The notes under the pieces were generated by a model that worked only from the letters and a program-made list of their open reading frames with translations, was not told the origin of the DNA and did not search any database. Made by a program: the position numbers and the translations under genes. Positions 26,561 to 56,025 of a stretch of 64,000 nt of DNA are shown here, one piece after another. This DNA comes from Lentisphaerae bacterium GWF2_57_35 (GTDB lineage Bacteria > Verrucomicrobiota > Kiritimatiellia > CAIQIC01 > GWF2-57-35). The stretch covers positions 62,001-126,000 of the forward strand of contig MHBK01000009.1 in NCBI GenBank assembly GCA_001804865.1, read 5' to 3'. Position 1 is the first letter of the stretch; each line of letters opens with the position of its first letter.

Positions 26561-28777
26561 ATGAAAAAACCTGTTTATTATCGGTGGTATAATTATCGTC
26601 GTGAAGCTTTGCCTAATGCTTATTTGGCTTCTTTAGAAGAAGGCGTCTCCTGTTTAGAAGAGGCTCAGGCCAAGACCGGTTATTCCATCGGCTATCCGGG
26701 CTGGAATTTGCTGTATTATGCGGCCGTGTGCGCATTGGATCCCCGCAAGGAGAACGTTATTCTTGAAACAGGAAGCAACATCGGCTGTTCATCTATTGTT
26801 CTTGCTCAAGCGTTGCGTGATGCAAAGGTGCGCGGTCATTTGCATACGATCGAAGCTGATCCTGCCGCGCATGAAAAAGCCGTGACCAACATAAAGCTCG
26901 CGGGATTAAGTGACCTCACTACAGCTCATCTTGGTCGCAGCGCGGAAATTCTTCCAAGCCTTCTGGCTTCACTTCGCGAACCCCTTTCCGTTGCGTTTTT
27001 GGACGCATCCCATCTCTTTGATGATATCATGTCCGAATTTTCGCTCGTCCTTCCGTATTTAAAAACGGACGGGGTTGTAATCTTCGACAATACTTACCCG
27101 CTCGCGGATAAAGGCGAGGATCCGCGTGTTCATGGCGCGCTTCTTGAGATTACAAATCGCTATGGGGGAAATGTTGTGCATTTTCCTTTTGTTTCCTGGT
27201 ACACCCCAGGAATGGCTGTTTGGCAGCCGGATCAGGAAGGCACCTCAAGAGATCTCATCAAGGTGCAACGACACGACGCCACAAATCAGGCTGTCGATGG
27301 GATATCGAAAACTCTTTCCTCGTGTAGCTTTGCCGTCACAACTTCATTACAGCGGATATTCCCTCACGTAGCGTACGAATCATTTTTGAAGGCTTTTACA
27401 GCTGTATTCCAAATCTATAGCAAGATCAGCGGACGATTTTGCGGCGATGGAGGAGATCATCTTGCGCAATACTGCGCTTGCATCGAATTCCTGAATACAC
27501 AACCGGACACAGAAGTCTTCAGGGCAGTCGAAATTGGCTCTCTTTTCGGAGGAAGCGCCTCTCTCATCCTTAGCGCAGCCAGGGACAGGGGCAAGGCAGC
27601 TAAACTGACTTGTATCGACCCTATGTCTGGTTTTTACGCAAAACCGGACATATCGGGAGTTGAAGTTTCTCCCAAAACCTTTTGGACCAATATTGGCCAC
27701 ATGGGCTTTGGACACGAGCAAGTGGATCTCCAGATCATGACAAGCGATGCTTTCGATGTTCGCACAAATATTGCCAATGAATCCTGCGGGATATTGCTGA
27801 TTGATGGAGATCATTCATATCAAGGAGTGAAGTCTGATTGGGAGAGATATTCGCACGTCGTCAGTCCAGGCGGATTCGTTCTGTTCGATGATTACGGCGA
27901 TGCCGCATGGCCAGACATCACACGCTTTGTCGATGATCTTGTTGCGGACTTGCCATGCGGATGGAAAGGATTGGGAGCCATCGGCACTACGTATGTTGTC
28001 TCGCGTTCTTACAGTGCGAAACCCACCGCAGTCCCGACAAAAGAGATTAGCGACGACTGGAATTCAACCATTGAATCGCTGGCCTTGGCAGATGAATTGA
28101 TCGGCAACAACATAGCTGACGGCTTCCAGCGCACGAGGAGGATCACCCAGCTGCTTTCTAATTTCCTTGGTCACTATCGCCACGTCACAGAGAAACACCG
28201 GAAAATTCAGCCCGTTTGCCCGACTTCGCAACCCAATCGAGCTCAAATCCGTGCTGTTCAACCACCGACTATTACTAGCGAGGGTCTAGAATGTGAATTT
28301 ACTCACGCCAAGAATGTCTTGAATGAATTCGATAAAGCTTATCAAAATAGAATCGCAGCATATGACCGTCTTCGCAAGACCCACGGTTTGTTTATTCGCG
28401 ATTTGCTGAAAATCAAATGGCAGAGCCTTCTGGAAAATGGCCATTTAGAACAAATTTGGCTCTACGGCGCAGGACAGCATACACGATGGCTTCTCCGCCA
28501 AGTGGCTCATCAAAAAGGCCCTCGAATTATAGGGATCATTGACGACGCAGCAATATCAGGGCAAACCATCGACGACATTCCTGTTCTTTCATTGAAGGCG
28601 GCATTAAAACACGATATTAAAGCCGTCATCCCATCCACTGACACGCCCAATAGCCCCTTGACACGCAAAGTAGCGCAAGTGTTTCAGCATAAGGCGCAAA
28701 TTATTTCTCTTTATTCGGATTGGCCTCCGGGGCCTTATCCCAAAGAGGAGGATACGAATAGTTCTCAGATTGAATGA
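26561..28777 (+). CDS. Fusion of two methyltransferase domains and the GAGxHT Rossmann module
   Basis: A 738-residue cytosolic protein with three parts. Residues about 50-220 are a Methyltransf_24-like domain (VILETGSNIGCSSIVLAQAL, then LDASHLFDDIMSEF). Residues about 300-490 are a second domain of the same class (AVEIGSLFGGSASLIL, then ILLIDGDHSYQGVKSDWERY, FVLFDDYGDA). After a linker, residues about 620-735 (28420-28760) hold the module IWLYGAGQHTRWLL ... GIIDDAA ... DIPVLS ... SLYSDW. The module recurs in at least six other proteins of this locus. Likely a glycan or precursor methyltransferase. The substrate is unknown, and whether both SAM sites are active is unclear. Confidence 0.8.
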   Translation: MKKPVYYRWYNYRREALPNAYLASLEEGVSCLEEAQAKTGYSIGYPGWNLLYYAAVCALDPRKENVILETGSNIGCSSIVLAQALRDAKVRGHLHTIEADPAAHEKAVTNIKLAGLSDLTTAHLGRSAEILPSLLASLREPLSVAFLDASHLFDDIMSEFSLVLPYLKTDGVVIFDNTYPLADKGEDPRVHGALLEITNRYGGNVVHFPFVSWYTPGMAVWQPDQEGTSRDLIKVQRHDATNQAVDGISKTLSSCSFAVTTSLQRIFPHVAYESFLKAFTAVFQIYSKISGRFCGDGGDHLAQYCACIEFLNTQPDTEVFRAVEIGSLFGGSASLILSAARDRGKAAKLTCIDPMSGFYAKPDISGVEVSPKTFWTNIGHMGFGHEQVDLQIMTSDAFDVRTNIANESCGILLIDGDHSYQGVKSDWERYSHVVSPGGFVLFDDYGDAAWPDITRFVDDLVADLPCGWKGLGAIGTTYVVSRSYSAKPTAVPTKEISDDWNSTIESLALADELIGNNIADGFQRTRRITQLLSNFLGHYRHVTEKHRKIQPVCPTSQPNRAQIRAVQPPTITSEGLECEFTHAKNVLNEFDKAYQNRIAAYDRLRKTHGLFIRDLLKIKWQSLLENGHLEQIWLYGAGQHTRWLLRQVAHQKGPRIIGIIDDAAISGQTIDDIPVLSLKAALKHDIKAVIPSTDTPNSPLTRKVAQVFQHKAQIISLYSDWPPGPYPKEEDTNSSQIE

Positions 28778-28897
28778 ATCTGGAAAAAAACAGCGAGCAT
28801 CTCTCATCATGCGGACCGGGAATGACGGTAGATAAGTTGGCACATCTAACGATGAAGCGGCGATTCTCGTCTGTGATCGAAAAAGATAAGGGAATAA

Positions 28898-32617: not shown

Positions 32618-34306
32618 GTGACAGGATTATTTGTCATTCGCAATGCGTACGAATTAGATCACCTGACTCCAATGATTTCGCTGCTGGCTCAAAAGGACGA
32701 TCTCTTTCAGCTTCTTGTATTAAATGAAAACATTGCCCAGAATGATTATCGGCTGCATCACTTGGAAACGACGGGGCTGACCAAGATTGTTCGACCTCAT
32801 GATCTGTCGTTGTTATCCAGCGATGAATCTAGTCTAGCTACATGGCTGAATCTGCCGTGTCGGGGAGAGACTGGCTTCATCGCTTTCGGTTGGCTTCGTC
32901 ATGGCCAATACGGATTGGCGTTTGTCAAACGACTCATCGCTGCGGCAACCAAGCTGGGCATCCAAACGCTTTGCCTGCCTTCGGAAGCCTGCAGCTTTTC
33001 AAACCGTCTTGTCGCCCGTTCGGATACGGAAAGCAGCGTTATCCTTCGACATGAACCCGGCTGCTGGGTAAATCGCGTATTTGTAACATCGGACGTTTGT
33101 GAATCGAATTATCGGCCATGGGTGGAGTCTGAGCACTTAATTCGGACGGGATATGCACGATATTCCAATTCGTGGATATCCACACTCACTAAAATCGCTC
33201 CAGCTTTCCAATCGCCTGAAGCATTGGGTCATATAAAAATCGCCCTTTTTCTGCCGCGATATGAAATCCCCGCTAATTGGGACGAACTATTGTCCATTAT
33301 TCATATGCTTGCCCGCCAAGATCGCTTGTCTATCGCGATCAAACCGGATGACCAAGGGGCAGGACTTGAACGATTACAGAGGGCTTATCCAGCCTTGCGG
33401 GAGCTGGATGCGACCAACATTCGTTTTGTGGGTCACACGGTTGACAACATTTCACTGGTCCAATGGGCGGACTGGGTCTTGGATGCAGGTACAGAAGCTG
33501 TTTTTGATGCCATTGCACTGAACAAGCCTTTTCGATTGCTCGACTATCTCCTGTGCAATCGTTTAGTGGCTGCTGAGTTCTTTCCAAATACGCGCATTGG
33601 CTGCAGGGATGAGGTGGTGCAGTGGATGACGGCGCTTCCAAATGAAGAGCCGGGTGTATTAAGCAAATGCGAACGCAAAGCTTTTACTGAAAAAGTAATC
33701 AGAGAGTCCGCGTTGGTCTCACGTGACGATCTGTTCTCCGAGCAGCCACCGTCCCCCCGTTCGAAATCGCGTGCGCATTCCAATCAAATGGCGGGGACCA
33801 CTTGTGACGATCTGATCGCGAAGTCTGATCTTATGTTGCGAAATGACCAATTGCTCCGATCCATTGCTGCGTGTCATAAAATGATTGCTGCACGGGACAA
33901 AATGATCCAGATGAGAGAGGACTATCGCAATTCGGTATCCCGACTAGTTAAAGGATGTGTCAGAATATGCTGGGAACGGCTGGCTATCCAAGGTGTTACG
34001 AACGTCATTTTGTTCGGCGCCGGCAAGCATACCGACTGGTTGCTGCACGTTACGCATGACATGCCAACGCCTGCGGTCAGACTGATTCTGGACGATGCGG
34101 CCATTCCAGGGGAAACAAGGTTCGGCATTCCCGTTCTCCGACCATTGGATGCAACGCCGAACGGCGATCCCATCATTCTGTCAACGGATACGCATCAAGA
34201 AACCTTCCGAGCACGCTGCCAAACGTTGTTTGGCGAACGGATCAAATTGATAAATTTGTATGAGGAGCTACAGTTCCCTGGCCCTTATCCTAAAGGGATT
34301 TCATAA
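32618..34306 (+). CDS. GT-B-like protein (CDP-glycerol-transferase-like fold) with C-terminal GAGxHT module
   Basis: A 562-residue protein started by GTG at 32618, with GGAAGAGA upstream. The N-terminal 370 residues resemble a GT-B glycosyltransferase: IKIALFLPRYEIPANWDEL, RLSIAIKPDDQG, then VQWADWVLDAGTEAVFDAIALNKPF, the last being like the donor site of glycerophosphotransferase or capsule transferases. A linker of repeated ARDKMIQMRED-type helix follows. Residues about 455-562 are the module NVILFGAGKHTDWLL ... LILDDAAIPG ... GIPVLRP ... ILSTDTH ... INLYEE. Donor and acceptor unknown. The glycosyltransferase call rests on overall pattern only. Confidence 0.65.
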   Translation: MTGLFVIRNAYELDHLTPMISLLAQKDDLFQLLVLNENIAQNDYRLHHLETTGLTKIVRPHDLSLLSSDESSLATWLNLPCRGETGFIAFGWLRHGQYGLAFVKRLIAAATKLGIQTLCLPSEACSFSNRLVARSDTESSVILRHEPGCWVNRVFVTSDVCESNYRPWVESEHLIRTGYARYSNSWISTLTKIAPAFQSPEALGHIKIALFLPRYEIPANWDELLSIIHMLARQDRLSIAIKPDDQGAGLERLQRAYPALRELDATNIRFVGHTVDNISLVQWADWVLDAGTEAVFDAIALNKPFRLLDYLLCNRLVAAEFFPNTRIGCRDEVVQWMTALPNEEPGVLSKCERKAFTEKVIRESALVSRDDLFSEQPPSPRSKSRAHSNQMAGTTCDDLIAKSDLMLRNDQLLRSIAACHKMIAARDKMIQMREDYRNSVSRLVKGCVRICWERLAIQGVTNVILFGAGKHTDWLLHVTHDMPTPAVRLILDDAAIPGETRFGIPVLRPLDATPNGDPIILSTDTHQETFRARCQTLFGERIKLINLYEELQFPGPYPKGIS

Positions 34307-35368: not shown

Positions 35369-37114
35369 ATGAGCAATAAAACTGACTTGACCATCTCCGT
35401 TATCACGCCGAGTTATAACCAGGCAGATTTTCTGCCTTACTGTCTCGATTCCGTCGCCATGCAAAACTATGCGCCTATCGAGCACCTCGTCTATGACCCA
35501 GGCTCGACGGATAGCAGCCGAGAGACCGCTCTCCGCTATCCGCATGTCACGCTGCTCGCTGAGTCGGATCGCGGCCAGGCAGAGGCCGTAAACAAGGGGT
35601 TCACGCGCGCCAAGGGGGATATCCTGGCCTGGATCAATTCCGACGATTGTTACGCGGATGAAGCAGTTTTCGCCCGTGTAATCGCGCGCTTCAACGAGAG
35701 CGATCACCCGGACATCGTGTATGGGAAAGGCATTTTTACCAACGAAAAAGACGAATACCTGCGCGACGCCTATATTCACACCCGCTCGGACTTGCTTTTC
35801 TGGTTGTTTCAACAAGGAACAGGGATTCTTCAACCGGCAACGTTCATACGCCGCGAGGTGTTCGAAAAAGTCGGACGGATCAACGAATCGCTTCACTACA
35901 GTATGGATTACGAATACTGGATTCGGTGCGTCAAATCGAAGATTCAATTTGTGTACCAGGATGATTGTTATGCAAAAGCGCGTTATCACATTAAAAACAA
36001 AACCTTTGGCATGAGGGGTGAAAGCTATCGTGAGGTTTGCGAGATGTTGCTCTCGCAGTACGGTTATGTAAATCACAACTGGTTACGGCGTTATGCAGAA
36101 TACCGTGTGCAAGGGTTTGACGGCGTGCTTACTCATACAGGCAATCATCCATCCGATACAGAATCCATTGAAGTCGAATACAAAAAACTTCTCAAGGCCT
36201 ATAACGGTGGATTTGATGTGCGACGCTACATCACCGAACACAAGGATGAACGAGGCTGGCGCGACACGCAGAAGGAAATGGATCGTCTGAAGATTTCTGA
36301 AGGAACACCGTGTCATTCCATTCCTCTTGATCAAGCGACAGAGCAGGGAAATGTCTGTTATACCGTTGGGCCGCGTCGTTGGGCTTTCCGAGCCGATTGG
36401 AAAAAAGAACAAATTGTTAAAACGCATATGTTTCTTCGAGAGCGAATAGCCCAGCGTCACACCGATACTTGCGTTATCGTAGGTAATGGGCCAAGCCTCA
36501 AGCAGACCGACTTGAGTTTGCTGGTTGGGCAGGACGTAATCATTTCGAACAATGCGTTTCTAAATCCTGACTTGATTCGTCAAGCCGCCTTTTACACCGT
36601 GGTCAATTATCTCGTGGCGGAACAAAGTGCACCTTACATCAATCTTTTGCGCGGGCCCTGCAAAATCCTTCCTTATTGGCTCAGCTATTGCCTCAACGAG
36701 GGAGATGACACCTATTTTCTAGATGCGGTAGGCTATCCAGAATTCAGCACGGACATTTTCAAGAACGCATCGTGGCGGCATACCGTCAGTTTCTTCAATA
36801 TGCACTTGGCCTATGGCTTAGGATACAAACGGGTTGTTTTGGTTGGGTTTGATCACTCCTACACCCAACAGCAAGGCATCAAGGAAGGAGACGTTATTAC
36901 TCAGTTGGAGGATGACATAAACCATTTCGATCATTCTTACTTTCGCGGACGCAAATGGCAGGCCGCCGATGTGGATAACATGGAAAAAATGTATGAATTG
37001 GCCAAGAACGCGTATGAACAGGATGGGCGTGAAATCGTTAATGCAACCGTCGGCGGCCATTTGGAGTTGTTCAATCGCATGAGCCTGAAAGAAGCGTTGA
37101 TAGGGAGCCCCTGA
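35369..37114 (+). CDS. Fusion of GT2 glycosyltransferase and DUF115 (MAF/MptE-like) domain
   Basis: A 581-residue protein. Residues 1-230 are a GT2 domain (TISVITPSYNQADFLPYCLD, YDPGSTDSS, LAWINSDDCY). After a linker, residues about 365-575 form a DUF115-type domain: CVIVGNGPSLKQTDLSLL, VVLVGFDHSYTQ, then FDHSYFRGRKWQAADVDNM and GREIVNATVGGHLELF. DUF115 occurs in motility-associated factors that decorate flagellin with nonulosonic acids and in archaeal MptE. Here it probably transfers or modifies a charged sugar. The same domain occurs at 38315-39394 and as a remnant at 45.9 kb. Confidence 0.82.
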   Translation: MSNKTDLTISVITPSYNQADFLPYCLDSVAMQNYAPIEHLVYDPGSTDSSRETALRYPHVTLLAESDRGQAEAVNKGFTRAKGDILAWINSDDCYADEAVFARVIARFNESDHPDIVYGKGIFTNEKDEYLRDAYIHTRSDLLFWLFQQGTGILQPATFIRREVFEKVGRINESLHYSMDYEYWIRCVKSKIQFVYQDDCYAKARYHIKNKTFGMRGESYREVCEMLLSQYGYVNHNWLRRYAEYRVQGFDGVLTHTGNHPSDTESIEVEYKKLLKAYNGGFDVRRYITEHKDERGWRDTQKEMDRLKISEGTPCHSIPLDQATEQGNVCYTVGPRRWAFRADWKKEQIVKTHMFLRERIAQRHTDTCVIVGNGPSLKQTDLSLLVGQDVIISNNAFLNPDLIRQAAFYTVVNYLVAEQSAPYINLLRGPCKILPYWLSYCLNEGDDTYFLDAVGYPEFSTDIFKNASWRHTVSFFNMHLAYGLGYKRVVLVGFDHSYTQQQGIKEGDVITQLEDDINHFDHSYFRGRKWQAADVDNMEKMYELAKNAYEQDGREIVNATVGGHLELFNRMSLKEALIGSP

Positions 37115-38265
37115 TGAAATTAGATGAAACAAGAATAGCCTACGAATATCTCTCCGCGACGCGAACAAAAGGCGTCATGCTGGATGTCGGCGCACATATC
37201 GGAGGATCGGCCCTACCCTTTCTTGCGAACGGCTGGCGAGTATGCGCTTTCGAGCCCAATGATGAAAACCGGGAAAAACTTACCCGTTTGGCGGAACAGT
37301 ACCCGTTGCTCTCCGTTGACCCCAGAGCGGTCTCTGACAAATCCGGGCAGAAGGCGCCCTTCTATGCAAGCCATGTATCGACAGGAATTGGGTCCCTCAG
37401 TCCATTTCACAGCAGTCATGCGCTCAGCAGCCACGTAGACACCGTGACGCTCGTTGACTTCTGCAGGGAAAAACAAATTAGCAAGGTTGATTTCTTGAAG
37501 ATCGATACAGAAGGACACGACTTCTTTGTTTTAAAAGGTTTCCCCTGGGACACACTTCAGCCGGACATTATTGAATGCGAATTCGAAGACCGCAAAACGA
37601 GCATGCTGGGATATTCTTTTGGCGAGATGGCCGATTTTCTGACAACGCGAGGCTATGAAGTGCTGGTGTCGGAATGGGACCCCATCGTGGAATATGGGGG
37701 AAACCATCAATGGCATGCATTTAAAGCATGGCCATGTACTTTGGAAAAAGCCGAGAGCTGGGGCAATCTGCTTGCGTTCCGTGGAGGCCTGAACAGGGAA
37801 AGGCTATGCAACGCCATCGCCCAAACGCTTGGGCGCGACGTTGAGCGCGTGAGTCAGAAAAAAGCTCCCGCATCTACGCCTCAAAGAAATCGCGACGAAA
37901 TGATGCGCGCATATTTACGTTTGCGTTGGCGCGGCTTGCGAGCGGAAGGCGTTCATAGCGTCTACCTTTTTGGTGCAGGCAAGTTCACAAAATGGTTTAT
38001 GCCGCTGATCCACGACGCACAGGGACCCTCCATAATTGGCGTGCTGGATGATCAGGCAGTGTGCGGACAGACGATCGGAAGCACGCCGGTCTTACGTCCA
38101 GACAAAGTTGATGTCGGGCTTACCGATGGCGTAATTCTTTCAACGGATTCCCTGCGCAATGTGTTTACAGAACGCTGCCGCAGTCTGTATGGAATGGATG
38201 TGAGGCTGATTGATCTCTTTGAGGATCTAGGGGGCGAAAGCCCCAAGACCGTCAAAGGAGAGTAG
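37114..38265 (+). CDS. FkbM-type methyltransferase with C-terminal GAGxHT module
   Basis: A 383-residue protein. The N-terminal 230 residues are FkbM-like: GVMLDVGAHIGGSALPFLA (motif I), CAFEPNDENREKL, then VDFLKIDTEGHDFFVLKGF, the family hallmark. Residues about 260-375 are helix plus module: SVYLFGAGKFTKWFM ... GVLDDQAVCGQ ... TPVLRPD ... ILSTDSLR ... IDLFED. The ATG overlaps the stop of the previous gene by 1 nt. Probable O-methylation of a sugar hydroxyl. The module has Phe in place of the usual His. Confidence 0.85.
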   Translation: MKLDETRIAYEYLSATRTKGVMLDVGAHIGGSALPFLANGWRVCAFEPNDENREKLTRLAEQYPLLSVDPRAVSDKSGQKAPFYASHVSTGIGSLSPFHSSHALSSHVDTVTLVDFCREKQISKVDFLKIDTEGHDFFVLKGFPWDTLQPDIIECEFEDRKTSMLGYSFGEMADFLTTRGYEVLVSEWDPIVEYGGNHQWHAFKAWPCTLEKAESWGNLLAFRGGLNRERLCNAIAQTLGRDVERVSQKKAPASTPQRNRDEMMRAYLRLRWRGLRAEGVHSVYLFGAGKFTKWFMPLIHDAQGPSIIGVLDDQAVCGQTIGSTPVLRPDKVDVGLTDGVILSTDSLRNVFTERCRSLYGMDVRLIDLFEDLGGESPKTVKGE

Positions 38266-38314: not shown

Positions 38315-39394
38315 TTGTCGCGAGAATATATATTTCGTGAAGCCTATTTCCGTGAAGTCTGGCAGCGCCTTGTCAGACACTATAAATCTGTCGCTATTTA
38401 CGGCGCGGGTAAACACACGGATTGGTTGCTTCATCATGTGGTTTCTCCCGAACAAATCGAATCCGTTCGCGTTATTCTGGATGATTGCGCACCTCTAAAC
38501 GGTTCACTGCAGGGGCGACCTGTTATTGCGACCGCGGATTATGTCCCCCGTCCGGATGAAGTGGTTTTTGTTTCATCGGATGTTCATGAACGCGTCATGG
38601 CGGAACGGATATGCAAGATGTTCCCCGAGACGGAAATAGTCGCCCCATATGCCAATACAGGATATGGACCTTTCGAGCTGCCGCTCACGTTGGAACTCGA
38701 TGCATGCGCAAAGAATCGGGCTGCGATAGCGTCGTTTTCCCGACGTCATATCGGACAACGGTGCTTTATCCTGGGCAATGGACCCAGCTTGCGTGATACG
38801 AATTTGTCCCGGTTATCAGGCGAAATCACCTTTGGCTTGAACCGCATCTACCTGATGGAAAAGCTGATGGGTTTCAAGCCGTCGTACTATGTAGCCGTCA
38901 ACCCTCACGTGCTTGAGCAATTTCGAGACGACATTTCCAACAAAGTCCAATGCCCAAAGTTTATCAGTTCTGCCATGGCTCATCACTTTGAAGAACGGGA
39001 TGACGTCATGTTTTTTGATCATCAGTCGATACCCACTTTCCAAACCAATTTATTGGATCCCCTCTGGATTGGCGCTACGGTAACGTATGTGGCCATGCAA
39101 ATCGCTTTTTATATGGGCTTTCAGCAAGTCATTCTACTGGGCGTCGATCATTCTTTTACGACGCAAGGCAAGCCTCATGCCTTGGTTGAGTCCACGTGCG
39201 CCGACCCCAATCATTTTTGCGCGGATTATTTCGGTCAGGGCATCCGATGGCAATTACCCGATCTAGCCACTTCAGAACTGGCCTATTCATTGGCCCGATA
39301 CGCCTATTCGCAGAATGGACGCGAAATATTGGATGCGACCTTGCGCGGTCATTTAACTATTTTCCCGAAGGTGGATTACAATCAATTGTTTTAA
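38315..39394 (+). CDS. N-terminal GAGxHT module fused to a DUF115 domain
   Basis: A 359-residue protein in which the module comes first (about residues 1-115): SVAIYGAGKHTDWLL ... RVILDDCAPLNG ... GRPVIAT ... FVSSDVH. A DUF115 domain follows (about 145-359): CFILGNGPSLRDTNLSRL, VILLGVDHSFTTQGK, DPNHFCADYFGQGIRW, GREILDATLRGHLTIF. It starts at TTG 38315, because the in-frame stop TGA at 38297-38299 excludes an upstream start and the next Met is far inside the protein. This order shows that the module can be placed at either end of its partners. Confidence 0.78.
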   Translation: MSREYIFREAYFREVWQRLVRHYKSVAIYGAGKHTDWLLHHVVSPEQIESVRVILDDCAPLNGSLQGRPVIATADYVPRPDEVVFVSSDVHERVMAERICKMFPETEIVAPYANTGYGPFELPLTLELDACAKNRAAIASFSRRHIGQRCFILGNGPSLRDTNLSRLSGEITFGLNRIYLMEKLMGFKPSYYVAVNPHVLEQFRDDISNKVQCPKFISSAMAHHFEERDDVMFFDHQSIPTFQTNLLDPLWIGATVTYVAMQIAFYMGFQQVILLGVDHSFTTQGKPHALVESTCADPNHFCADYFGQGIRWQLPDLATSELAYSLARYAYSQNGREILDATLRGHLTIFPKVDYNQLF

Positions 39395-39471
39395 AGCAAC
39401 AGACGTGATCTTCGATCATGGGTCTCCTATTATCGAAGCAGGGTTTCACTTGGCATACGGAGGTTTTGCTC

Positions 39472-40155
39472 ATGATCGGTTCTGACAAAATAGTGGCGCT
39501 TCTGCCGATGAAGGCGCATTCAGAGCGTCTTGCGGACAAGAATATCCGACCCTTCTGCGGGCGCCCGCTCTATCATCACACGTTGCACGCACTGGCGGCG
39601 ATGACCGAAGTGGATGAGATTGTCGTCGATACGGACAGCGAACTAATTTCAATGGAAGCCCCGATCCTTTCGCCCAAGGTTCGAATTATCGAGCGTCCGG
39701 TGGAGTTGCGCGGGGATTTCGTGAGTATGAACCGGATTATCGAGCATGATTTGAGTCGGACAGACGGCAGTATTTTTTTGCAGACGCATTCAACCAATCC
39801 GCTGATTCGCTCGGGAACTTATGCACTCGCTCTGCGTTGCTTTCGAGAAGCAGAGGGACAGGATTCGTTGTTCAGCGTGAATCGTTATCAGAGCCGTTTT
39901 TATGACGCAGATATGCGTCCCATGAATCATCAGCCGGGGCATTTGATTCGCACCCAAGATTTACCCCCAATGTTTGAGGAAAACTCCTGCATCTATATTT
40001 TCACCAAAGAATCGTTTGCCCGAAGTGGCGCCCGCCTGGGCAAGAGTCCCCGTCTGTTTGTCACCCCCCGCTTGGAGTCGGTGGATATTGATGACGAAGA
40101 GAGCTGGCGACTCGCCGAATTGATTGGCAAAACGATGACCATTCATCCAGACTGA
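39472..40155 (+). CDS. Cytidylyltransferase, NeuA-like (acylneuraminate/CMP-sugar type)
   Basis: A protein of about 227 residues. It begins KIVALLPMKAHSERLADKNI, the nucleotide-binding motif of CMP-nonulosonate and Kdo cytidylyltransferases, followed by RPLYHHTL, EIVVDTDSE and FLQTHSTNPLI. The start ATG 39472 has ACGGAGG 8-9 nt upstream. It would activate a sugar acid with CTP for a transferase in the locus. The nearby DUF115 proteins fit such a donor. No NeuB-type synthase is in the window, so the acid must be made elsewhere or be something unusual. Confidence 0.85.
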   Translation: MIGSDKIVALLPMKAHSERLADKNIRPFCGRPLYHHTLHALAAMTEVDEIVVDTDSELISMEAPILSPKVRIIERPVELRGDFVSMNRIIEHDLSRTDGSIFLQTHSTNPLIRSGTYALALRCFREAEGQDSLFSVNRYQSRFYDADMRPMNHQPGHLIRTQDLPPMFEENSCIYIFTKESFARSGARLGKSPRLFVTPRLESVDIDDEESWRLAELIGKTMTIHPD

Positions 40156-44044: not shown

Positions 44045-44275
44045 CGTGGGCTCCAGTACAAAGGCTATCGAATATATTTTTCTTTGTATGCGTAAAAGGA
44101 ACATAACCGAAAACAAATGGGTTCGTAAAACAGAAATAGTTTCAGGTAATGAGTTCCATGATCATATGTCAGCCCGATGGGATCACAGCAAATCAGTCAG
44201 CCGTGAGACATCTTGCCTCATGAATGAGCGCGCCCATTGGAGCATCACGGATACCTCAAGAACTCTGGCCATATT

Positions 44276-45877
44276 ATGAATATCCTCATCGTCATCCCTT
44301 CCACCCGAACCCAATGCCAGGGCATCAGCGCTGTGGCCTATGCGCGCCACCTTCTTCGCAAGGGACAGAAGGTTCTTTTGCTTTATCATTTGGACCGGCG
44401 CGAACTGGAACAGGCCTTTCCAGATGAACTCCCGGCCATCCCCATGCGCTGGGAAGGCCGCCATTTGGCCGCTGACATCAAGAGGCAAGTGTCTGCCTTT
44501 GCCCCCGAGATCATTCATGTATGGGACATGTGGAGCCATGGATTGACGGCGGCGATCGAATGCGTCGTGGTTTCCAATGCCAAATTGATCATGCACCAAG
44601 AGGACAATTTGCTCCAAATTTGGAACCGTCAAAAACGCCATAGAAGGAACGAGAAACCTTTTCGCACCATTTTTGATGGAATTCGAAACAGAAAAGACCT
44701 CCTCAATCTGCTAAAGGAATGCAACCTCGATACATACTTCACCTCGGATTGGGCACCGCAGAATCCAGAGTTCGATCCCCTACTTTTCTTTATAGCCACC
44801 CGCACGACAAGCGCCTTCACAGCCATCTGGCATCCTATGAAAAACCGGCTCGATGAGGCCTTCCACAAGCCGGTCATGCTCTTCCCGCCCGGGTTTGAAC
44901 TGGACAGACATCTCCTAAATACAGCTCAGACGAAGACTCTCCGACGAGAGATCCTGGATTCCTTGAACGCGCCGCCAGATGCCATCCTATTGGGTGCAGG
45001 CGGCTCGCTACGGCATTTTGACAACGAATGGGGAACCTTTATTCAAGCCTTTCGCATCGCCGCTAAGAAAAACTCAAAACTTTTCCTGGCCGTATGGGGC
45101 TTTGATACGGATCCAGCCCTGACTCAGGCACTGACAAAACGGCATCGCCTATCTGAACGTGTGGCCTTGTTGGGAACCGTGGATGACGCTCGTTTCGCTG
45201 GCCTCCAGCAAGCGGCGGACATTCATGTCTGCGCGGGATATGACAGCACGTTCAACATCTATCGCCTGCCCAGCCGGCTCTGTCGCCTGTTCTGGCTAGG
45301 CAAACCCCTTCTCATCCATCGAGCCGGCTTTGGGGAATCGCTGGCAGAGGGCGAAGAGGCCATGCTGACCCATACTAATAAAGCTTCCGAATGGGCTGAG
45401 AAACTGCTTACGTTAGCCCAAGACGAAGCCTTGCGCAACCGGCTTTCCCAAGCTGCACGCCGATTTGCCGAACGCCATTTCGACATGGAGCAGAACACCG
45501 ACCGCCTGCTTGAATTTTATGCCGCTGTGATGGCCAACCCTGCGGCTAGTCAAACTGGCGATGTCCACTCGAAGGCTGCAGCTTGTCTGCGACAGCGGCT
45601 GGAAAAATCGGGGGTACGACGTATCGCACTCTACGGAGCCGGGCTACATTCCCAGCGGCTAATCCGACAGGGCTGGCTAAAAGAGGTGGAAATCGTCGCC
45701 ATCCTTGACGACGCTCCTTGTTCGCTTTCCCTGGAAGGGATTCCCATCCTTGACACCCATACCCCCAATCTCCCTGCTTGGGACGCGCTCGTTCTTTCTA
45801 GCGATACTCACGAGTCGGCGCTTCTTGAAAAAGCTCGAGCCCGCGACTGGAAGAATGTTTGGACTATGTATGCATGA
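44276..45877 (+). CDS. GT-B glycosyltransferase with C-terminal GAGxHS module
   Basis: A protein of about 533 residues. It begins NILIVIPSTRTQCQGISAVA and shows a GT4-like layout: ILLGAGGSLRHFDNEWGTFI, LALWGF-like strand LAVWGFDTDP, RVALLGTVDDARFAGLQQAADIHV, and the donor site region LFWLGKPLLIHRAGFGESLAEGEE. Residues about 445-533 are the module RIALYGAGLHSQRLI ... ILDDAPCSLS ... GIPILDTH ... LSSDTH ... WTMYA. The ATG at 44276 was chosen, since the upstream extension lies in the leader. A truncated DUF115 remnant follows directly. Confidence 0.82.
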   Translation: MNILIVIPSTRTQCQGISAVAYARHLLRKGQKVLLLYHLDRRELEQAFPDELPAIPMRWEGRHLAADIKRQVSAFAPEIIHVWDMWSHGLTAAIECVVVSNAKLIMHQEDNLLQIWNRQKRHRRNEKPFRTIFDGIRNRKDLLNLLKECNLDTYFTSDWAPQNPEFDPLLFFIATRTTSAFTAIWHPMKNRLDEAFHKPVMLFPPGFELDRHLLNTAQTKTLRREILDSLNAPPDAILLGAGGSLRHFDNEWGTFIQAFRIAAKKNSKLFLAVWGFDTDPALTQALTKRHRLSERVALLGTVDDARFAGLQQAADIHVCAGYDSTFNIYRLPSRLCRLFWLGKPLLIHRAGFGESLAEGEEAMLTHTNKASEWAEKLLTLAQDEALRNRLSQAARRFAERHFDMEQNTDRLLEFYAAVMANPAASQTGDVHSKAAACLRQRLEKSGVRRIALYGAGLHSQRLIRQGWLKEVEIVAILDDAPCSLSLEGIPILDTHTPNLPAWDALVLSSDTHESALLEKARARDWKNVWTMYA

Positions 45878-45907
45878 CAACGTGTTGGAGTTGGGGGCTG
45901 CCCCAGG

Positions 45908-46211
45908 CAAGTTCTATCTCATCGGCGTCGATCATTCCTATGCGATCGATCCATCCCAATGCTATCAAGAAGAACGCGTATTAACTTCGATCGACAAAGA
46001 TCCCAACCACTTTCATCCGGATTACTTCGGCAAGGGGCGTCGCTGGACGTCGCCACCTCCCATGGAAAAATTGGATGCCTGCTACCTAAAGGCACAAGCG
46101 GTATATGCGGAACACGGGAGGAGCATTTTTAATGCAACGGCGGGCGGCATGCTGAACGTGTTGCCGAGGGTCGAGTTCGGCAGCCTGATTCAAACCACAT
46201 CCCGCGAATGA
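45908..46211 (+). pseudogene. 5'-truncated DUF115 domain remnant
   Basis: The frame ending at 46211 encodes KFYLIGVDHSYAIDPSQ, DPNHFHPDYFGKGRRW and GRSIFNATAGGMLNVLPRV. This corresponds to only the last 95-100 residues of the DUF115 domain, matching the ends of the proteins at 36.4-37.1 and 38.7-39.4 kb. The first half, with GNGPSL, is missing, and the upstream part of the frame is shadow of the glycosyltransferase. It is therefore a gene relic left by deletion or recombination at the 3' end of the GAGxHS module. A reading start could exist near the ATG at 45896. Confidence 0.75.
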
Positions 46212-48806: not shown

Positions 48807-48938
48807 ACGAGGCTCGAAGCGAAATATGGCCGCAAAAAGCGCAAAACAACGCAAGCAGGGAAAGTTGCTTTCCCGCTTGAAGATATTATTGATATTTTGC
48901 ACTTGAATGGCAGACAAAATAAAAGGTGAATTATCCGC

Positions 48939-49397
48939 ATGAACCCCAAACGCATCATCACCTTCGGAACCTTCGATCTGTTTCACATCGGACATGTGGA
49001 GATTCTTCGCCGGGCCAAGGAACTGGGATCCGTGCTGATTGTTGGAGTCAGTTCCGACGCGCTGAATTTTTCGAAGAAGAAAATCTATCCGGTGTATCCA
49101 CTCGCTGATCGGTTGGACATTGTGCGGTCAGTTCGCTACGTGGACGAGGTGTTTGTCGAGGAAAGTCTGGAGCTGAAGCGCGAGTATCTGTTGAGTCATC
49201 GCGCGGATGTATTGGTCATGGGAAATGACTGGGCCGGTCGTTTTGACGAATTCAAGGATGTCTGCGAAGTGGTTTATCTTTCCCGCACGCCTTTTGTCTC
49301 CAGTTCTGAAATCAAGATCGTCTGTCAGAAGCCGGACGCCCGGCTGCCGGAACGATTCGATCCGTATGTGGGCGGGAATGAGACCGGAAATCGTTAG
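48939..49397 (+). CDS. TagD-like cytidylyltransferase (glycerol-3-phosphate type)
   Basis: A 152-residue enzyme of the nucleotidyltransferase HIGH family. The motif is ITFGTFDLFHIGHVEIL (HxGH at residues 16-19), then VLVMGNDWAGRFDEF and RTPFVSSSEIK in the place of the family RTxGISTTxI. TagD makes CDP-glycerol from CTP and glycerol-3-phosphate. A CDP-glycerol glycerophosphotransferase-like gene lies 1.4 kb downstream beyond the second DUF4143 ATPase, which supports this substrate. The altered RT motif leaves room for another alditol phosphate or for an ethanolamine-phosphate-like donor. Confidence 0.82.
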   Translation: MNPKRIITFGTFDLFHIGHVEILRRAKELGSVLIVGVSSDALNFSKKKIYPVYPLADRLDIVRSVRYVDEVFVEESLELKREYLLSHRADVLVMGNDWAGRFDEFKDVCEVVYLSRTPFVSSSEIKIVCQKPDARLPERFDPYVGGNETGNR

Positions 49398-49399
49398 GC

Positions 49400-49675: not shown

Positions 49676-50831
49676 GGTTGTTTTAATGATTTTTCAACGA
49701 TATTACAGCCCATTCTTATCCGAGCAGGCTTCGCCTGGAAAAGTCTTGGTACTATATGGCGCCCGGCGAACGGGGAAGACTTGGCTGATTAAGCATTTCC
49801 TGGAAGGTTCCAAGGAGCGTGTCTATCAAGGAACGGGTGACGACTCGTCGTTGCGCGCCGTGCTCGAAAAATGCTCCATATCGGATATCAAAGCTTTGTT
49901 CGGCGGTTATGATATGGTCTTTATCGATGAGGCACAGCGGATCGCGGGCATTGGAAACATCCTGAAGCTCATGATCGATACCCTGCCTACGTTGCGGATC
50001 ATCGCCACAGGATCCTCTTCATTCGAATTGGCGCATCAAGTCGGCGAACCTTTGACGGGGCGCAAGAAAACGCTGAAACTTTATCCGATGTCCGTGCTGG
50101 AATTGAACCGGCAATGGGGCGGAATGTATTGCGAAGAGTCCTTGGAGTCGATGCTGATCTATGGAACCTATCCCGAGGTCCTAACGTTGGCCAGCCCATC
50201 GGCTAAAACCGACTATCTCATTGAATTGAGAGATTCCGCATTATACAAAGACATCCTGGAGCTTGATTCGGTTCGAAACGCGAAGAAGATTGGCGACTTG
50301 CTGCGATTGGTTGCCTTTCAAGTGGGTCGAGAAGTTTCTTACAGGGAATTGGCCACCCAGTTAGGTTTGAATGTTAAAACCGTTGAACGGTATCTTGACT
50401 TGCTGGAAAAGGCCTTTGTCTTGTTCAATGTGCGTGGGTTTTCAAGGAATCTCAGGAAGGAGATTTCCAAGACATCTCGATATTTCTTTCTCGATAACGG
50501 AATCCTCAACGCCTTGACGGCAAACTTCAACGCCTTGCCATTGAGAAACGATGTGGGCGTGCTGTGGGAGAATTTCGTATTCATGGAACGGTTAAAACGA
50601 AACACCTACCTTGCCCATCGGGCAAATTATTACTTCTGGCGGACGTATGACCAACAAGAGATTGACTTGGTCGAAGAGCACGACGGGAAGCTGGCTTCTT
50701 TCGAATTCAAGTACCGTTCAACCAAAATCAAAAAACCCAAGGCCTGGGGTGACGCTTATCCACAAGCCACCTATGACGTGATATCCAGAAGCAATTATCT
50801 CCCATTCATGACAGAAAGTTCTCATGGATAG
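49674..50831 (+). CDS. DUF4143-family AAA ATPase 2
   Basis: A 385-residue ATPase. Walker A is LVLYGARRTGKTWLIKHF, Walker B MVFIDEAQRI, and the sensor segment RIIATGSSSFELA. A winged-helix-like part (SYRELATQLGLNVKTVERYL, about 220-240) and the DUF4143 end (YFFLDNGILNAL, VLWENFVFMERL, QEIDLVEEHDG ... FEFKYRS) follow. The start may be 49674 or the second ATG at 49686. Its own promoter carries twin palindromic operators. It splits the TagD-like gene from the glycerophosphotransferase-like gene and overlaps the latter by 8 nt, so an insertion into an older pair is likely. Confidence 0.88.
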   Translation: MVVLMIFQRYYSPFLSEQASPGKVLVLYGARRTGKTWLIKHFLEGSKERVYQGTGDDSSLRAVLEKCSISDIKALFGGYDMVFIDEAQRIAGIGNILKLMIDTLPTLRIIATGSSSFELAHQVGEPLTGRKKTLKLYPMSVLELNRQWGGMYCEESLESMLIYGTYPEVLTLASPSAKTDYLIELRDSALYKDILELDSVRNAKKIGDLLRLVAFQVGREVSYRELATQLGLNVKTVERYLDLLEKAFVLFNVRGFSRNLRKEISKTSRYFFLDNGILNALTANFNALPLRNDVGVLWENFVFMERLKRNTYLAHRANYYFWRTYDQQEIDLVEEHDGKLASFEFKYRSTKIKKPKAWGDAYPQATYDVISRSNYLPFMTESSHG

Positions 50832-52326
50832 GTCCTACACACTGTTATTTGAACACACGTCCGGCGGCATTGCGGAACATGCGGTTCCGGTGGCGGCGGA
50901 ATGGATACGGCGCGGGCATGTCGCGCTGGTTATGACAACGGCGCAAGAACTCCCTGCGGTGCAAAAGGCTCATGAGGGCCTCGCGGTCCGCTACGAGATT
51001 TTTGGGGGCGCCGGCGTGGATTGGGCAAATGTGAATGCGATTTTTAATGTCATCCCCGGAGAACCGGGGCCGATTTTTCGCGATATTCGTGGGCGGTGCG
51101 ACATTCCGCGCGTGACGATCAATCATGGGCTGACCGACAAGCAAACGACCTTTCCCGCGGATTTTATTGGGAACGGGGTCGGTTATGCAAATGTTCTGTT
51201 CGCCTGCGGGCCGGCCATGTTTAAAGGCTCCTGGGAAAAATACATTCGAAAATGGCCTGAAATTCTTCATAGCTTAAAAGTCGTTCCGATTGGCTCTCCC
51301 AAAACGGATGTGCTTTTTGACGGCACGTTTCAACGCGACGAGGTTCTGCAATCGTTGGGTCTCGATCCGAAAAGACCGGCTGTGCTTTATGCGCCCACAT
51401 ATCAGAAGGAAGCTTCGCTGGAGCAGGCCGGCGAGGATATTATCCAAGCTCTGGTTTCATTGCCGATCAGCGTCATCGTTCGCCCACATCATTTATCTAT
51501 GCGTAAAGAATGGATGGACCGCCTGCGGGAGTTAGAGGCCGCACATTCTAATCTTCGCGTAATCGCAAGCAGCAGCAACCCGCTTTTTGTGGCGGCGGAT
51601 CTGTTGGTGGGCGATGTGAGCGGGGCGTGTTTCGAATACATTCTGCAGGACAAGCCGGTGGTCTTTTATGATGTGCCTGCATTTTTTGAGGCGCACGGAC
51701 GCGCCGGCGTCGGTTATTGGGGACGCGATGCCGGGACGATCGTGAAAACGCCTGACGAATTGCGCGCCGCCGTAATGTCCGAATTGCTTCATCCCGAGCG
51801 CATGGCTAAGGCGCGGAAGAGCCTCATTGGGCAACTCGTATCCGAGAGAGGCGGGGCGGCTGTACGGGCGGTGGATGCGCTTTTGGATATGATCGAAGGG
51901 CGTCTGGATTATCCTACCTGGGGACCCCGTCAGTGTCTGCGCCAAGATACGATGTTAAGATCCTATCTGCTTGAGCGCCTTGAGCGCTGTGCGCTTGAAA
52001 CCGAAAGTATCGCCTTGTTCGGTGCCGGAGCGCATGCTTCTTGGCTTCTTGATTTCATGCAACGAGTATCTGCAACAGGACGCCGCATGCCTTGCGTGAC
52101 GTGCATACTTGACGACCATGCGATCTCGTCGAACGCTACGCTCAACGAGATCCCCATTGTTGCGCCTTGCAAAGAAATGAGTTTTTCTTTTGATGCCGTC
52201 ATTTTCGCGACAGACTATCATCAAGCCGCTTTTCGAAAACGTTGTGAAGAGGTCTTTGGAAAGGAATTGCCGACCATCGATTTGTACGAGCCTTTTCCAT
52301 GGCATAGGCCCCATACAACGAGTTAA
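50824..52326 (+). CDS. CDP-glycerol glycerophosphotransferase-like enzyme with C-terminal GAGxHA module
   Basis: A 500-residue protein. Residues 1-370 match the Glyphos_transf (TagB/TagF) pattern: PIGSPKTDVLF, AVLYAPTYQKE, VIVRPHHLSMR, LLVGDVSGACFEYILQDKPV and VFYDVPAFF. These enzymes add glycerol phosphate from CDP-glycerol to a growing polymer. Residues about 380-500 are the module SIALFGAGAHASWLL ... ILDDHAIS ... EIPIVAP ... FATDYH ... IDLYEPF. With the TagD-like gene upstream it would give a glycerol-phosphate-decorated glycan, unusual for a Gram-negative envelope. The gene overlaps DUF4143 ATPase 2 by 8 nt. Confidence 0.82.
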   Translation: MDRSYTLLFEHTSGGIAEHAVPVAAEWIRRGHVALVMTTAQELPAVQKAHEGLAVRYEIFGGAGVDWANVNAIFNVIPGEPGPIFRDIRGRCDIPRVTINHGLTDKQTTFPADFIGNGVGYANVLFACGPAMFKGSWEKYIRKWPEILHSLKVVPIGSPKTDVLFDGTFQRDEVLQSLGLDPKRPAVLYAPTYQKEASLEQAGEDIIQALVSLPISVIVRPHHLSMRKEWMDRLRELEAAHSNLRVIASSSNPLFVAADLLVGDVSGACFEYILQDKPVVFYDVPAFFEAHGRAGVGYWGRDAGTIVKTPDELRAAVMSELLHPERMAKARKSLIGQLVSERGGAAVRAVDALLDMIEGRLDYPTWGPRQCLRQDTMLRSYLLERLERCALETESIALFGAGAHASWLLDFMQRVSATGRRMPCVTCILDDHAISSNATLNEIPIVAPCKEMSFSFDAVIFATDYHQAAFRKRCEEVFGKELPTIDLYEPFPWHRPHTTS

Positions 52327-52340: not shown

Positions 52341-53522
52341 ATGCCTAATGTTTCCATTGTTATTCCCGTAATGAACCAGTTGCCGTTCACGCGCAACTGC
52401 CTGGATGCGCTTTTTCGGCGGACGCCGCAGCGACTGTATGAGTTGATACTTGTCGACAACGGCTCGATGGATGCGACGCCGGATTATCTGCAGGCGCAGA
52501 CGCATTCGTTTCGGTATTTGCGCAACGAAACCAACCTGGGGTTTGCAAAGGCTTGCAACCAGGGGGCGGAGGCGGCGCGGTGCGAGTGGGTGTTGTTTTT
52601 GAATAACGATACGTTGCCGCAACAGGGCTGGCTGGAGACGATCGTCGAGTTGGCTGCGAGCGATCCGCAGATTGGGGCGGTGGGAGCGCGATTGCTGTGG
52701 CCCAACGGGACGTTGCAGGAGGCGGGGGGAATTGTGTTTTCGGATGCGGCCACTTGCCACATCGGGAACCGGGACGACGCCTCCAAAGAGCTGTACAATA
52801 CCGCCTACGAAGTGGATTTCTGTTCGTCGGCGTGCTTACTGGTCCGGCGCAATGTGTTTCTGAGCTTGGGCGGCTTCGATACCCAGTATTTTCCATATTA
52901 TTATGAATGCCCTGACCTTTGTTTTACGCTACGGAGCCATAACTACCGCGTGATGTATTGCCCGGATTCGCTGGTCATTCATTACGAAGGCATGACGCCG
53001 CTTGAAGCCGGCTTGGATCGCGAACAACTGATGGAACAGAATCGGCAGAAGTTCATCGCCAAATGGCGGGAGGAATTGCGGCTGCAACCGGCGCCGCCGG
53101 TGGAGAGCGGGTTGATGGTGGTCGAGTCGCGTCAGGGCATCAAGCTCCGGGTCGGAAAATGGTACTACATCGGCAACGACCGGGTGCTGAAACAAAACCT
53201 CGAACGATTCATTCATTTGCACCTCGCCGATCCGGGCGTACGGCTGGCTTTATACGGCGCCGGAAAACATACCCGGCGGCTGCTGGCGCTGAATATGATT
53301 CCGAAGAATCGCATCGTGGCGATTTTTGACGATCTGGCAACGGTTCCGAATGTGTCCGGCATCCCGGTGTTGCATCCCCGGCAGGCCAAGCCCATCGAAT
53401 ACGACCTTCTGCTGGTGAGTTCCGACAGCGTCTGGGAGGATCTGGCGTATAAGGCCCGCCAATGGGTTCCGGAAGGGCGACGAATCGAGAGCCTTTACAG
53501 CGATCTCCAGGAGCTGCCGTGA
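52341..53522 (+). CDS. GT2 glycosyltransferase with C-terminal GAGxHT module
   Basis: A 393-residue protein. Residues 1-250 are a rhamnosyltransferase-like GT2 domain: VSIVIPVMNQLPFTRNCLDA, LILVDNGSMDATP, WVLFLNNDTLPQQGWL (DxD position as NND), FCSSACLLVRRNVF, and LCFTLRSHNYRVMYCPDS. Residues about 285-393 hold the module LALYGAGKHTRRLL ... AIFDDLATVPN ... GIPVLHP ... LVSSDS ... ESLYSDL. The following gene starts by GTG within the stop codon of this one, so translation is coupled. Confidence 0.87.
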   Translation: MPNVSIVIPVMNQLPFTRNCLDALFRRTPQRLYELILVDNGSMDATPDYLQAQTHSFRYLRNETNLGFAKACNQGAEAARCEWVLFLNNDTLPQQGWLETIVELAASDPQIGAVGARLLWPNGTLQEAGGIVFSDAATCHIGNRDDASKELYNTAYEVDFCSSACLLVRRNVFLSLGGFDTQYFPYYYECPDLCFTLRSHNYRVMYCPDSLVIHYEGMTPLEAGLDREQLMEQNRQKFIAKWREELRLQPAPPVESGLMVVESRQGIKLRVGKWYYIGNDRVLKQNLERFIHLHLADPGVRLALYGAGKHTRRLLALNMIPKNRIVAIFDDLATVPNVSGIPVLHPRQAKPIEYDLLLVSSDSVWEDLAYKARQWVPEGRRIESLYSDLQELP

Positions 53523-54682: not shown

Positions 54683-54759
54683 AAACCGAGGGCAGGGGTT
54701 GCGGCTTCTACAAAAATAGGCTCTTCGCTGTGATCGATCCATTACGCTGACCAAGCCAC

Positions 54760-56025
54760 ATGAACAACTGCACAACAAAATTTCTGAGCATCGTCCTCAC
54801 CGGCCGCAACGACAATCATAACGGCGATTTCAATCGGCGGGCGGAATTCGCGATCAAGCATAATGCCGCACTCTTGAAGGCGCATGAAGTTGACGCGGAA
54901 TGGGTGTGGGTGGAGTGGAATCCTCTGGCCGGCGCGCCGCTGTTTGCGGAGACCATTCGCGAATGGGTATCGCCGCTGAGAGCCTATGTGGTCCCCGCGG
55001 CTCTGCATCGGCACTTCTGCGACAATCCGCATGTGGGCGTGGTGCAGTTTTTTGCCAAGAATGTGGGAATCCGGCGCGCCCACGGCGAATGGATTCTTTC
55101 CATGAATGCCGATACGTATCTGACGGAGGAAGTGGTTCGCAGCCTGGCGAGGGAAAACTTGCGCAAAGACGTTTTGCACCTGGCTATCCGGATTGATTTT
55201 GACAGCCGGCATTTGGTCGAAACCCCGTCAAGCTTTCCCGTAACCGGGTTGGAGCAAAGAACGATCGTCCGCACCAGCGAAATCCGATTGCCCAATGCGT
55301 ATGGGTCGGCGGGCGATTTCACGTTGATGCATCGGGATTTGTTCATGAGAACGCAGGGGCATTACGAGGGCATCCGGTTTTCGAATAATCACCTCGATAC
55401 GTTGCTGGGGCGGCAGGTTCAGGCGCTGGGCGGGAGCTTTCGAATCCTTGGGCAGGTCTTCCATGCCGATCACGCCGATTCGTGGAATAATTTTACTGTG
55501 GAGGACGTCTTTGCCCATCATCACGGGGCCGATTACAATTCCCTGAAGATCCCGGTTCCGTATCGCAATCCCGAAGATTGGGGCCTGGCGAACTATCCGG
55601 AGCAGCCCTTGCGCGAGGATGTATGGGAAATTGGGATTCCAGCGGGAACGGCAATCCGAAACGAATTGCCGGCCACCCTTCTCATTCCGCCGGAATTAAA
55701 GGGAGTGGCGGAAGCGTCTCGTCGGCTGGCCGAGGCGATTGGGGACCTTCGCCGGCGGCCGTTGCGGGTGGTGATTTTTGGACTGGGCGAACAGTTGAGG
55801 CAATCGATTCTCAAAGGCGTCTTGAGCGGAATCGAGGTGTTGGGTTACATCGACGAGAATCGCGGCGAAGACCTGACGTTGCCTTGCCGGAAACTATCCT
55901 GGGAGGAGCTGAAGGCCATCGAATATGATGTGGTTCTGCTCGGAAGTTTTTATTGGGCGGAGGAGCTGCGCGAGAAGGCGCTTCGGCATGTCGCGGAGGA
56001 AAGGATTTTGCCGACGAGGAAATAA
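54760..56025 (+). CDS. GT2-like glycosyltransferase with divergent C-terminal Rossmann module
   Basis: A 421-residue protein. The N-terminal part is GT-A-like: LSIVLTGRNDNHNGDFNRRA, HGEWILSMNADTYLTEEVV (DxD as NADT), and GSAGDFTLMHRDLF. The central part contains DTLLGRQVQALGGSFRI. The last 90 residues have the same layout as the GAGxHT module but with the glycine motif VVIFGLGEQLRQSI, then GYIDEN, CRKLSWEELK and VVLLGSFYWAEELREKAL, so this copy is the most diverged. It is the last gene of the locus. A hairpin and a strong terminator follow within 80 nt. Confidence 0.8.
   Translation: MNNCTTKFLSIVLTGRNDNHNGDFNRRAEFAIKHNAALLKAHEVDAEWVWVEWNPLAGAPLFAETIREWVSPLRAYVVPAALHRHFCDNPHVGVVQFFAKNVGIRRAHGEWILSMNADTYLTEEVVRSLARENLRKDVLHLAIRIDFDSRHLVETPSSFPVTGLEQRTIVRTSEIRLPNAYGSAGDFTLMHRDLFMRTQGHYEGIRFSNNHLDTLLGRQVQALGGSFRILGQVFHADHADSWNNFTVEDVFAHHHGADYNSLKIPVPYRNPEDWGLANYPEQPLREDVWEIGIPAGTAIRNELPATLLIPPELKGVAEASRRLAEAIGDLRRRPLRVVIFGLGEQLRQSILKGVLSGIEVLGYIDENRGEDLTLPCRKLSWEELKAIEYDVVLLGSFYWAEELREKALRHVAEERILPTRK

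Follow-up and report, generated by a model that had tools for sequence, protein, structure and literature searches.

In Pcryo_0637, the N-terminal domain serves as a platform for UDP, on which a pair of aspartates contacts the uracil and the ribose and a loop contacts the phosphates; the Asp pair is common to PglD, and in both proteins the equivalent Asp pair and a Ser/His loop touch UDP (PMC8040287). In the modular flagellin glycosyltransferase FlmG of Caulobacter, a non-catalytic domain binds flagellin and confers specificity (PMC7591256), and Maf1 binds flagellin directly, in a glycosylation that takes place in the cytoplasm (PMC4065374). Here, we describe a Rossmann-like module of about 100 residues that recurs on seven enzymes of a glycan locus in Lentisphaerae bacterium GWF2_57_35, within a stretch of 64,000 nucleotides that we call the window. 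The fold and the ancestry of this module belong to what is already known; its use as a recurrent accessory domain of unrelated transferases appears to be new, as judged from the open-licence papers that we searched.

With the N-terminal domain of PglD, NeuD and VioB (PF17836, TIGR03570) the module shares the Rossmann-like fold, the G-x-G-x-H loop, the Asp-Asp after strand 2 and the G-(I/L)-P-V strand, but it lacks the left-handed beta-helix acetyltransferase part and adds a conserved S-(S/T)-D and a Tyr. The C-terminal domain of C-methyltransferases (Methyltransf_14, PF08484) is likewise a Rossmann domain that closes a methyltransferase and gives weak matches; however, it is known from one enzyme type, whereas the module joins dozens. 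Methyltransf_14 had no match in the window and reached 18.0-18.4 bits elsewhere, below its cut-off, and one protein with 25.3 bits (L053) is probably a true member of that family and not a module. The nucleotide-sugar enzyme domain 3nkl was the best match when the PDB was searched with a sequence profile of the module, at a non-significant E of 0.15, and one partner protein (L056) passes the cut-off of CoA_binding_3 (PF13727). These two domains sit on membrane sugar-phosphate transferases or dehydratases, unlike the module. FlmG shares the logic that a non-catalytic domain on a flagellin-modifying transferase gives acceptor specificity, but its domain consists of TPR repeats, has no sequence relation to the module and occurs on one enzyme. 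Finally, the Maf/PseD flagellin nonulosonic acid transferases (PF20157 plus PF01973) share an MptE-like core with the window protein at 38315, which has the module where Maf has PF20157 and is therefore Maf-like only in this core; indeed, Pfam found MptE-like PF01973 in it and no PF20157.

RESULTS

Seven enzymes of one locus end or begin in the same module

We translated the 461 open frames of the window and extracted eight segments in which a sequence-only reading had seen one shared module. Seven of these are almost certainly homologous copies: a leave-one-out profile of the other six refound each among the 461 frames at E 5e-16 to 3e-27, with unrelated frames at E > 0.3 and pairwise identities of ~25-44%. 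The same searches, in which all seven were refound, rule out that the segments belong to separate known families. The earlier claim fails to carry over firmly to the eighth segment (55762-56004), which reached only E 0.35-1.4 with the profile and E 0.002 by BLASTP against the GT2 protein; the His, the second Asp, the SSD and the Tyr are all missing from it, and it may at best be a degenerate copy. The host proteins, where GT stands for glycosyltransferase, are the following.

26561..28777, + strand: 738-residue protein with two methyltransferase domains (Methyltransf_24), a Pro/Ser-rich linker and a C-terminal module at 28412-28744 (Pfam; leave-one-out E 3e-27)
32618..34306, + strand: 562-residue protein, GT-B-like by eye, C-terminal module at 33965-34294 (profile; AlphaFold model of the module)
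37114..38265, + strand: FkbM methyltransferase, C-terminal module at 37921-38247 with His replaced by Phe and Tyr by Phe (Pfam; profile)
38315..39394, + strand: N-terminal module at 38357-38671, followed by an MptE-like/DUF115 domain (Pfam; profile)
44237..45877, + strand: GT4-type glycosyltransferase, C-terminal module at 45584-45874 (Pfam; profile)
50824..52326, + strand: CDP-glycerol-type glycerophosphotransferase (Glyphos_transf), C-terminal module at 51967-52317 (Pfam; profile)
52341..53522, + strand: GT2 glycosyltransferase, C-terminal module at 53226-53516 (Pfam; profile)
54760..56025, + strand: GT2-like protein with a possible degenerate module at 55762-56004 (profile E 0.35-1.4; BLASTP E 0.002)

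Six of the seven modules are thus the C-terminal ends of their proteins and the seventh (38357-38671) is a protein start. Pfam agrees with the enzyme names that had been given by eye (two Methyltransf_24-type domains, FkbM, MptE-like/DUF115, GT4, Glyphos_transf and GT2) and has no match for the 562-residue protein. Both by Pfam and by homology grouping with the module masked, the partner parts of the seven modules are mutually unrelated, and duplication of whole enzymes is therefore not the origin of the array.

A PglD-type fold with a conserved pocket

The AlphaFold model of the module at 32618 has a pLDDT of 92.8. Its nearest solved folds include Rex (top match, E 6e-3, probability 0.99), the PglB acetyltransferase domain (4m99), 3nkl and VioB (7txp), the last superposing at 2.5 A over 84 columns; TM-scores to Rex are only about 0.5. 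No family with a Rex-type winged helix occurs among the partners, and the likeness is limited to the fold of the Rossmann part. In the model of the full GT2 fusion (mean pLDDT 67) both ends fold well and the middle poorly, with a low-confidence stretch at 207-278, which suggests that the module is a separate domain, although the low confidence of the middle may only reflect a shallow alignment.

Aligned with hhalign to five genuine NeuD/PglD acetyltransferases from related genomes, a profile of 27 module copies gave a probability of 95.7% (E 9e-9) over the first 66 columns. PglD_N (PF17836) scored 12.5-19.1 bits or not at all on the window copies, against a curated cut-off of 23.4, few copies beyond the window pass it (L046; the double copy of L057), and one of the 90 module proteins that we collected (see below) reaches E 1e-5; the NeuD model (TIGR03570) matched eight of the 27 copies, weakly. 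No Pfam or NCBIfam model claims the module, which gives at most these weak PglD/NeuD matches. The likeness to the PglD/NeuD N-terminal domain that had been noticed from the letters is nevertheless borne out by the profile-profile alignment together with the G-x-G-x-H and Asp-Asp motifs, and the module very likely descends from a PglD_N-type Rossmann domain. It was also correctly read as non-catalytic: the left-handed beta-helix acetyltransferase domain of NeuD/PglD (TIGR03570) is absent after the module, which either closes its protein or precedes another enzyme.

Conservation is concentrated in four places, which lie at the C-terminal ends of strands 1, 2, 4 and 5 in the AlphaFold model. In the G-A-G-x-H-T loop after strand 1 the last Gly of GAG is kept in 91/91 copies and the His in 77/91; after strand 4 the three positions of S-(S/T)-D are kept in 75/92, 83/91 and 73/91; and the Tyr after strand 5 is kept in 74/79. 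The Asp-Asp after strand 2 is retained in 89 (first Asp) and 81 (second Asp) of 92 copies, which argues that the module may still bind something there and keep a ligand in a PglD-type pocket.

The array recurs with many partner enzymes

Is this use of the module peculiar to one locus? In the window's own genome, the seven strong copies are confined to this locus. Beyond it, such arrays turned up again in many genomes, across many phyla and with many partner types. We collected 92 copies in 90 proteins, chiefly from Kiritimatiellae, Verrucomicrobiota, Lentisphaerae and Phycisphaerae, with up to eight copies per genome within the class. In a draw of 388 genomes from the phylum, 12 passed E 1e-8; eight of the 12 carry at least four copies, usually clustered on one contig, with up to nine per genome. 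Weak single-copy matches (G086 and G448; the PglD-like G007, G009 and G121) were taken as relatives of the family, not as members. Within Phycisphaerae, 54/298 genomes hold the module, and a scan of named genomes added carriers in Phycisphaerales, other Planctomycetota, Lentisphaeraceae, Verrucomicrobia, Deltaproteobacteria/Desulfobacterales and Gammaproteobacteria. Some arrays are dense (seven of eight genes in a row on a Pontiellaceae contig, 7/11 in Lentisphaeraceae, 6/8 in genome G486 and 3/3 in two others); many genomes of the phylum draw and of the Phycisphaerae scan have a single copy.

The module is C-terminal in 65 of the 90 proteins, N-terminal in 15 and internal in 10, and it is doubled in tandem in two (L150, L166). 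Pfam partners comprise group-1 glycosyltransferases (16), radical SAM (12), GT2 (11), Methyltransf_11/23/25 (8-9), Methyltransf_24 (6), Glyphos_transf (5), B12-binding (5), SPASM (4), FkbM (2), deacetylase (2) and Asn-synthase (1); MptE/DUF115 is also a partner, and single scans add sulfotransferase-TPR, HAD and GT47-like proteins. Radical SAM, sulfotransferase, deacetylase and Asn-synthase partners are neither glycosyltransferases nor methyltransferases. When the module is masked, grouping by homology gives 14 sets of partners and 29 singletons. The fusion of a CDP-glycerol-type transferase to the module is found in three other genomes of the class besides the window's own. The module also stands on radical SAM/SPASM and B12-dependent radical SAM enzymes (L035, L060/L165, L049), which might C-methylate the same glycan or tailor it by other radical chemistry.

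A tree of the modules is short of sites, leaves most forks open and has terminal branches near 0.8 changes per site. On this tree, partner type requires 31 changes (41.2 +/- 1.6 in shuffles) and genome of origin 35 (40.8 +/- 1.6), such that partner type clusters more strongly than genome. Since modules cluster both by partner and by genome, many fusions are old and were inherited as fusions, with some local copying. The same grouping rules out that the modules of a locus arose by duplication or gene conversion in one recent burst.

Module genomes encode flagellin

Because the MptE/DUF115 partners suggested flagellin glycosylation, we tested module genomes for flagellin genes and found them in 28 of 28 (15 genomes first, then 13). 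In the phylum draw, flagellin is present in all eight strong-module genomes, which represent eight families, as opposed to 45/388 genomes overall (p = 1.8e-8); with the weak single-copy matches included, the count is 10/12 (p = 9e-9; by genus, 6e-7). As a control we took genomes with Glyphos_transf, which is found among the partners and marks glycan loci; only three of 28 have flagellin (p = 0.65), and two of these three are module genomes. Glycan loci in general are thus ruled out as the cause of the link.

A physical association was found in Aestuariibacter sp. AA17, where the module is carried by a TIGR04440-type glycosyltransferase (contig position 55.2 kb), flanked by an FlgL-like gene on one side and a series of flagellin genes on the other. 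Within 35 kb lie PseB, PseC, PseF, PseI, a PseH-like acetyltransferase, Maf, FliS, FliD, six flagellins and the module glycosyltransferase, and this Maf carries both Maf domains (PF20157 and PF01973). The module enzyme is located inside a typical flagellin-glycosylation island. Over the wider contig (32-90 kb; L169/L170/L171) we counted eight flagellin-type genes and two NeuB-type synthases, and the Maf is 1193 residues long. Overall, flagellin glycosylation is probably the usual context of the module.

Other genes of the window locus

Three further genes of the locus bear on its chemistry and history.

39418..40155, + strand: CMP-sugar synthetase-type cytidylyltransferase (CTP_transf_3), without module
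45900..46211, + strand: C-terminal remnant of a second MptE/DUF115 protein, in another frame, directly after the GT4 module (BLASTP)
48939..49397, + strand: TagD-like nucleotidyltransferase (GTFDLFHIGH motif), without module (sequence motif)

The remnant is 37% identical to the 38315 protein over 90 residues (BLASTP E 9e-18). In the 38315 protein the module precedes MptE, whereas here the MptE tail comes after the GT4 module; the junction is, as judged from the sequence, a probable recombination scar and lets module shuffling be seen at work. The gene at 48939, which we take to be a member of the TagD-like family, is a likely source of CDP-glycerol for the transferase at 50824. It lies between module genes (46824-50831) in the company of a nucleotidyltransferase-like gene (46824) and two AAA-type-ATPase-like genes (47616, 49674). 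Two genes before the module-MptE protein, 35369-37114 encodes a GT2 domain with an MptE-like domain at its C-terminal end and no module. Just upstream of the glycan locus, 23378-24853 encodes a secreted-looking protein of repeats with the pattern GWVLKGVGDINRDGTxDILWHNSSTRMVAYWLLNxxGTLxSSG, and at the end of the locus a gingipain-like protein (C25-type by eye) and an open frame of 1872 residues lie on the opposite strand (56159-63994, - strand).

DISCUSSION

Homology, recurrence, the variety of partners, the conservation of the pocket, the association with flagellin genes and one copy inside a flagellin-glycosylation island form the observed basis for an interpretation of this array. We speculate that a non-catalytic domain derived from the PglD/NeuD-type nucleotide-binding Rossmann domain has been attached repeatedly to transferases that build and tailor one glycan, that its conserved pocket would bind a single ligand shared by all steps of the pathway, and that through this ligand enzymes unrelated in fold would be led to a single acceptor. 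The pathway would most likely be cytoplasmic flagellin glycosylation, in which sugars and modifications are added in turn to a soluble protein; each enzyme would have to find the soluble flagellin, and the shared domain could provide this recognition. Since enzymes of one pathway carry a shared domain, common recognition of the acceptor, or of a ligand attached to it, is the simplest reading. We hold it tentatively, at somewhat less than an even chance that the module is a shared recognition or docking domain for a common acceptor or ligand; the docking, its target and an action of the window locus on flagellin are what we infer here. An adaptor or shared-ligand role had already been suggested from the letters and appears plausible, as the conserved residues sit in the model where a Rossmann domain holds its ligand.

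Several observations weigh against this interpretation. In the phylum draw, 35 flagellated genomes lack the module, and in Phycisphaerae flagella may be common anyway, so that flagellin positives there carry little weight. In the window's genome the modules lie on contig C9 and the flagellins on C15 and C32, not adjacent, and in a single-contig Desulfobacterales genome the modules are at 29-46 kb and flagellin at 1.52 Mb. The Aestuariibacter copy is among the more diverged (D-N, SSQ). Within the window, the GT2s at 34340 and 40187 and the GT4 at 53462 do without a module, and WcbI together with the CDP-glycerol genes (TagD-like, 48939; transferase, 50824) fits a surface polymer. The tie to flagella is an indirect one in this genome: one flagellin contig also holds a NeuB, and the module locus has the CMP-sugar-synthetase-type gene; flagellin and a surface polymer may both fit as the acceptor of the window locus. 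Finally, a conserved small-molecule pocket is no weaker an argument for a nucleotide or sugar as ligand than for docking to a protein.

This last point is the starting place of a strong rival, which we nonetheless consider unlikely, namely that the module acts in cis and holds the nucleotide end of the activated sugar for its own partner enzyme, as the N-terminal domain of PglD and VioB does. The retained Asp-Asp and G-x-G-x-H, the presence of VioB (7txp) and the PglB acetyltransferase domain (4m99) among the closest folds, and the scores that likely nucleoside-diphosphate-sugar C-methyltransferases with a Methyltransf_14-like end reach with the module profile are all consistent with such a handle. 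However, GT2, GT4 and FkbM partners own donor sites and should not need it, and placement at either end, internally or in tandem speaks more for a tether than for a built active site, as do linkers that look long and flexible in sequence and are lent weak support by the stretch 207-278 of the GT2 model. The Rex-like fold could instead point to modules that bind each other, or one partner protein, and so hold the enzymes of a locus in a multi-enzyme assembly. In favour of this, Rex heads the fold matches, Rossmann domains of the Rex/CoA-binding type often form pairs, some proteins hold the module in tandem (L150, L166) and many enzymes of one locus are tagged; yet conservation is strongest in the presumed ligand pocket, module sequence tracks partner type more than genome, where an adaptor private to a locus should track genome, and many genomes have only one copy, which together make self-association less likely again.

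Rex senses NADH, and its position as top match (E 6e-3, probability 0.99), with the conserved pocket, would also suit an allosteric sensor of nucleotide, redox or energy state that switches the enzyme on or off. We regard this as improbable, as the Asp pair and the His resemble those of PglD, the TM-scores to Rex stay about 0.5 and there is no evident reason to regulate only glycan-tailoring transferases in this way. Judged from sequence, self-association and allosteric sensing are both less supported than the holding of a nucleotide or nucleotide-sugar. Could the module be functionless and merely carried along by recombination between neighbouring genes? The cut MptE remnant after the GT4 module shows that modules get shuffled, but pocket residues are kept across phyla and partners despite terminal branches near 0.8 changes per site, and different genera retain one identical type of fusion (CDP-glycerol transferase, four genomes), such that neutral spread is very improbable.

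In the open-licence papers that we searched, we found no account of such a system, i.e. of one domain of this kind recurring on dozens of unrelated transferases, arrayed and tied to flagellated lineages, in line with the sequence-only reading, which knew of no description. For annotators, it is a family that no current model names. The question of how cytoplasmic flagellin-modifying enzymes reach one protein in the right order has been answered only in single cases such as FlmG and Maf. A domain shared by as many as nine enzymes of a genome would predict pathway membership from sequence, including that of enzymes without a recognised family; the module would also offer a portable tag for glycan engineering. 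In its boldest form, which we place on the doubtful side, recognition of a common acceptor would make the module a 'ticket' domain of flagellated planctomycetal, verrucomicrobial and related bacteria, which labels the glycosyl-, methyl-, phosphoglycerol-, sulfo- and radical-SAM enzymes of a pathway and gives them one docking site, flagellin or its first sugar. If true, these bacteria would possess a soluble assembly line for glycans, and an enzyme's place in it could be read from the shared domain that it carries.

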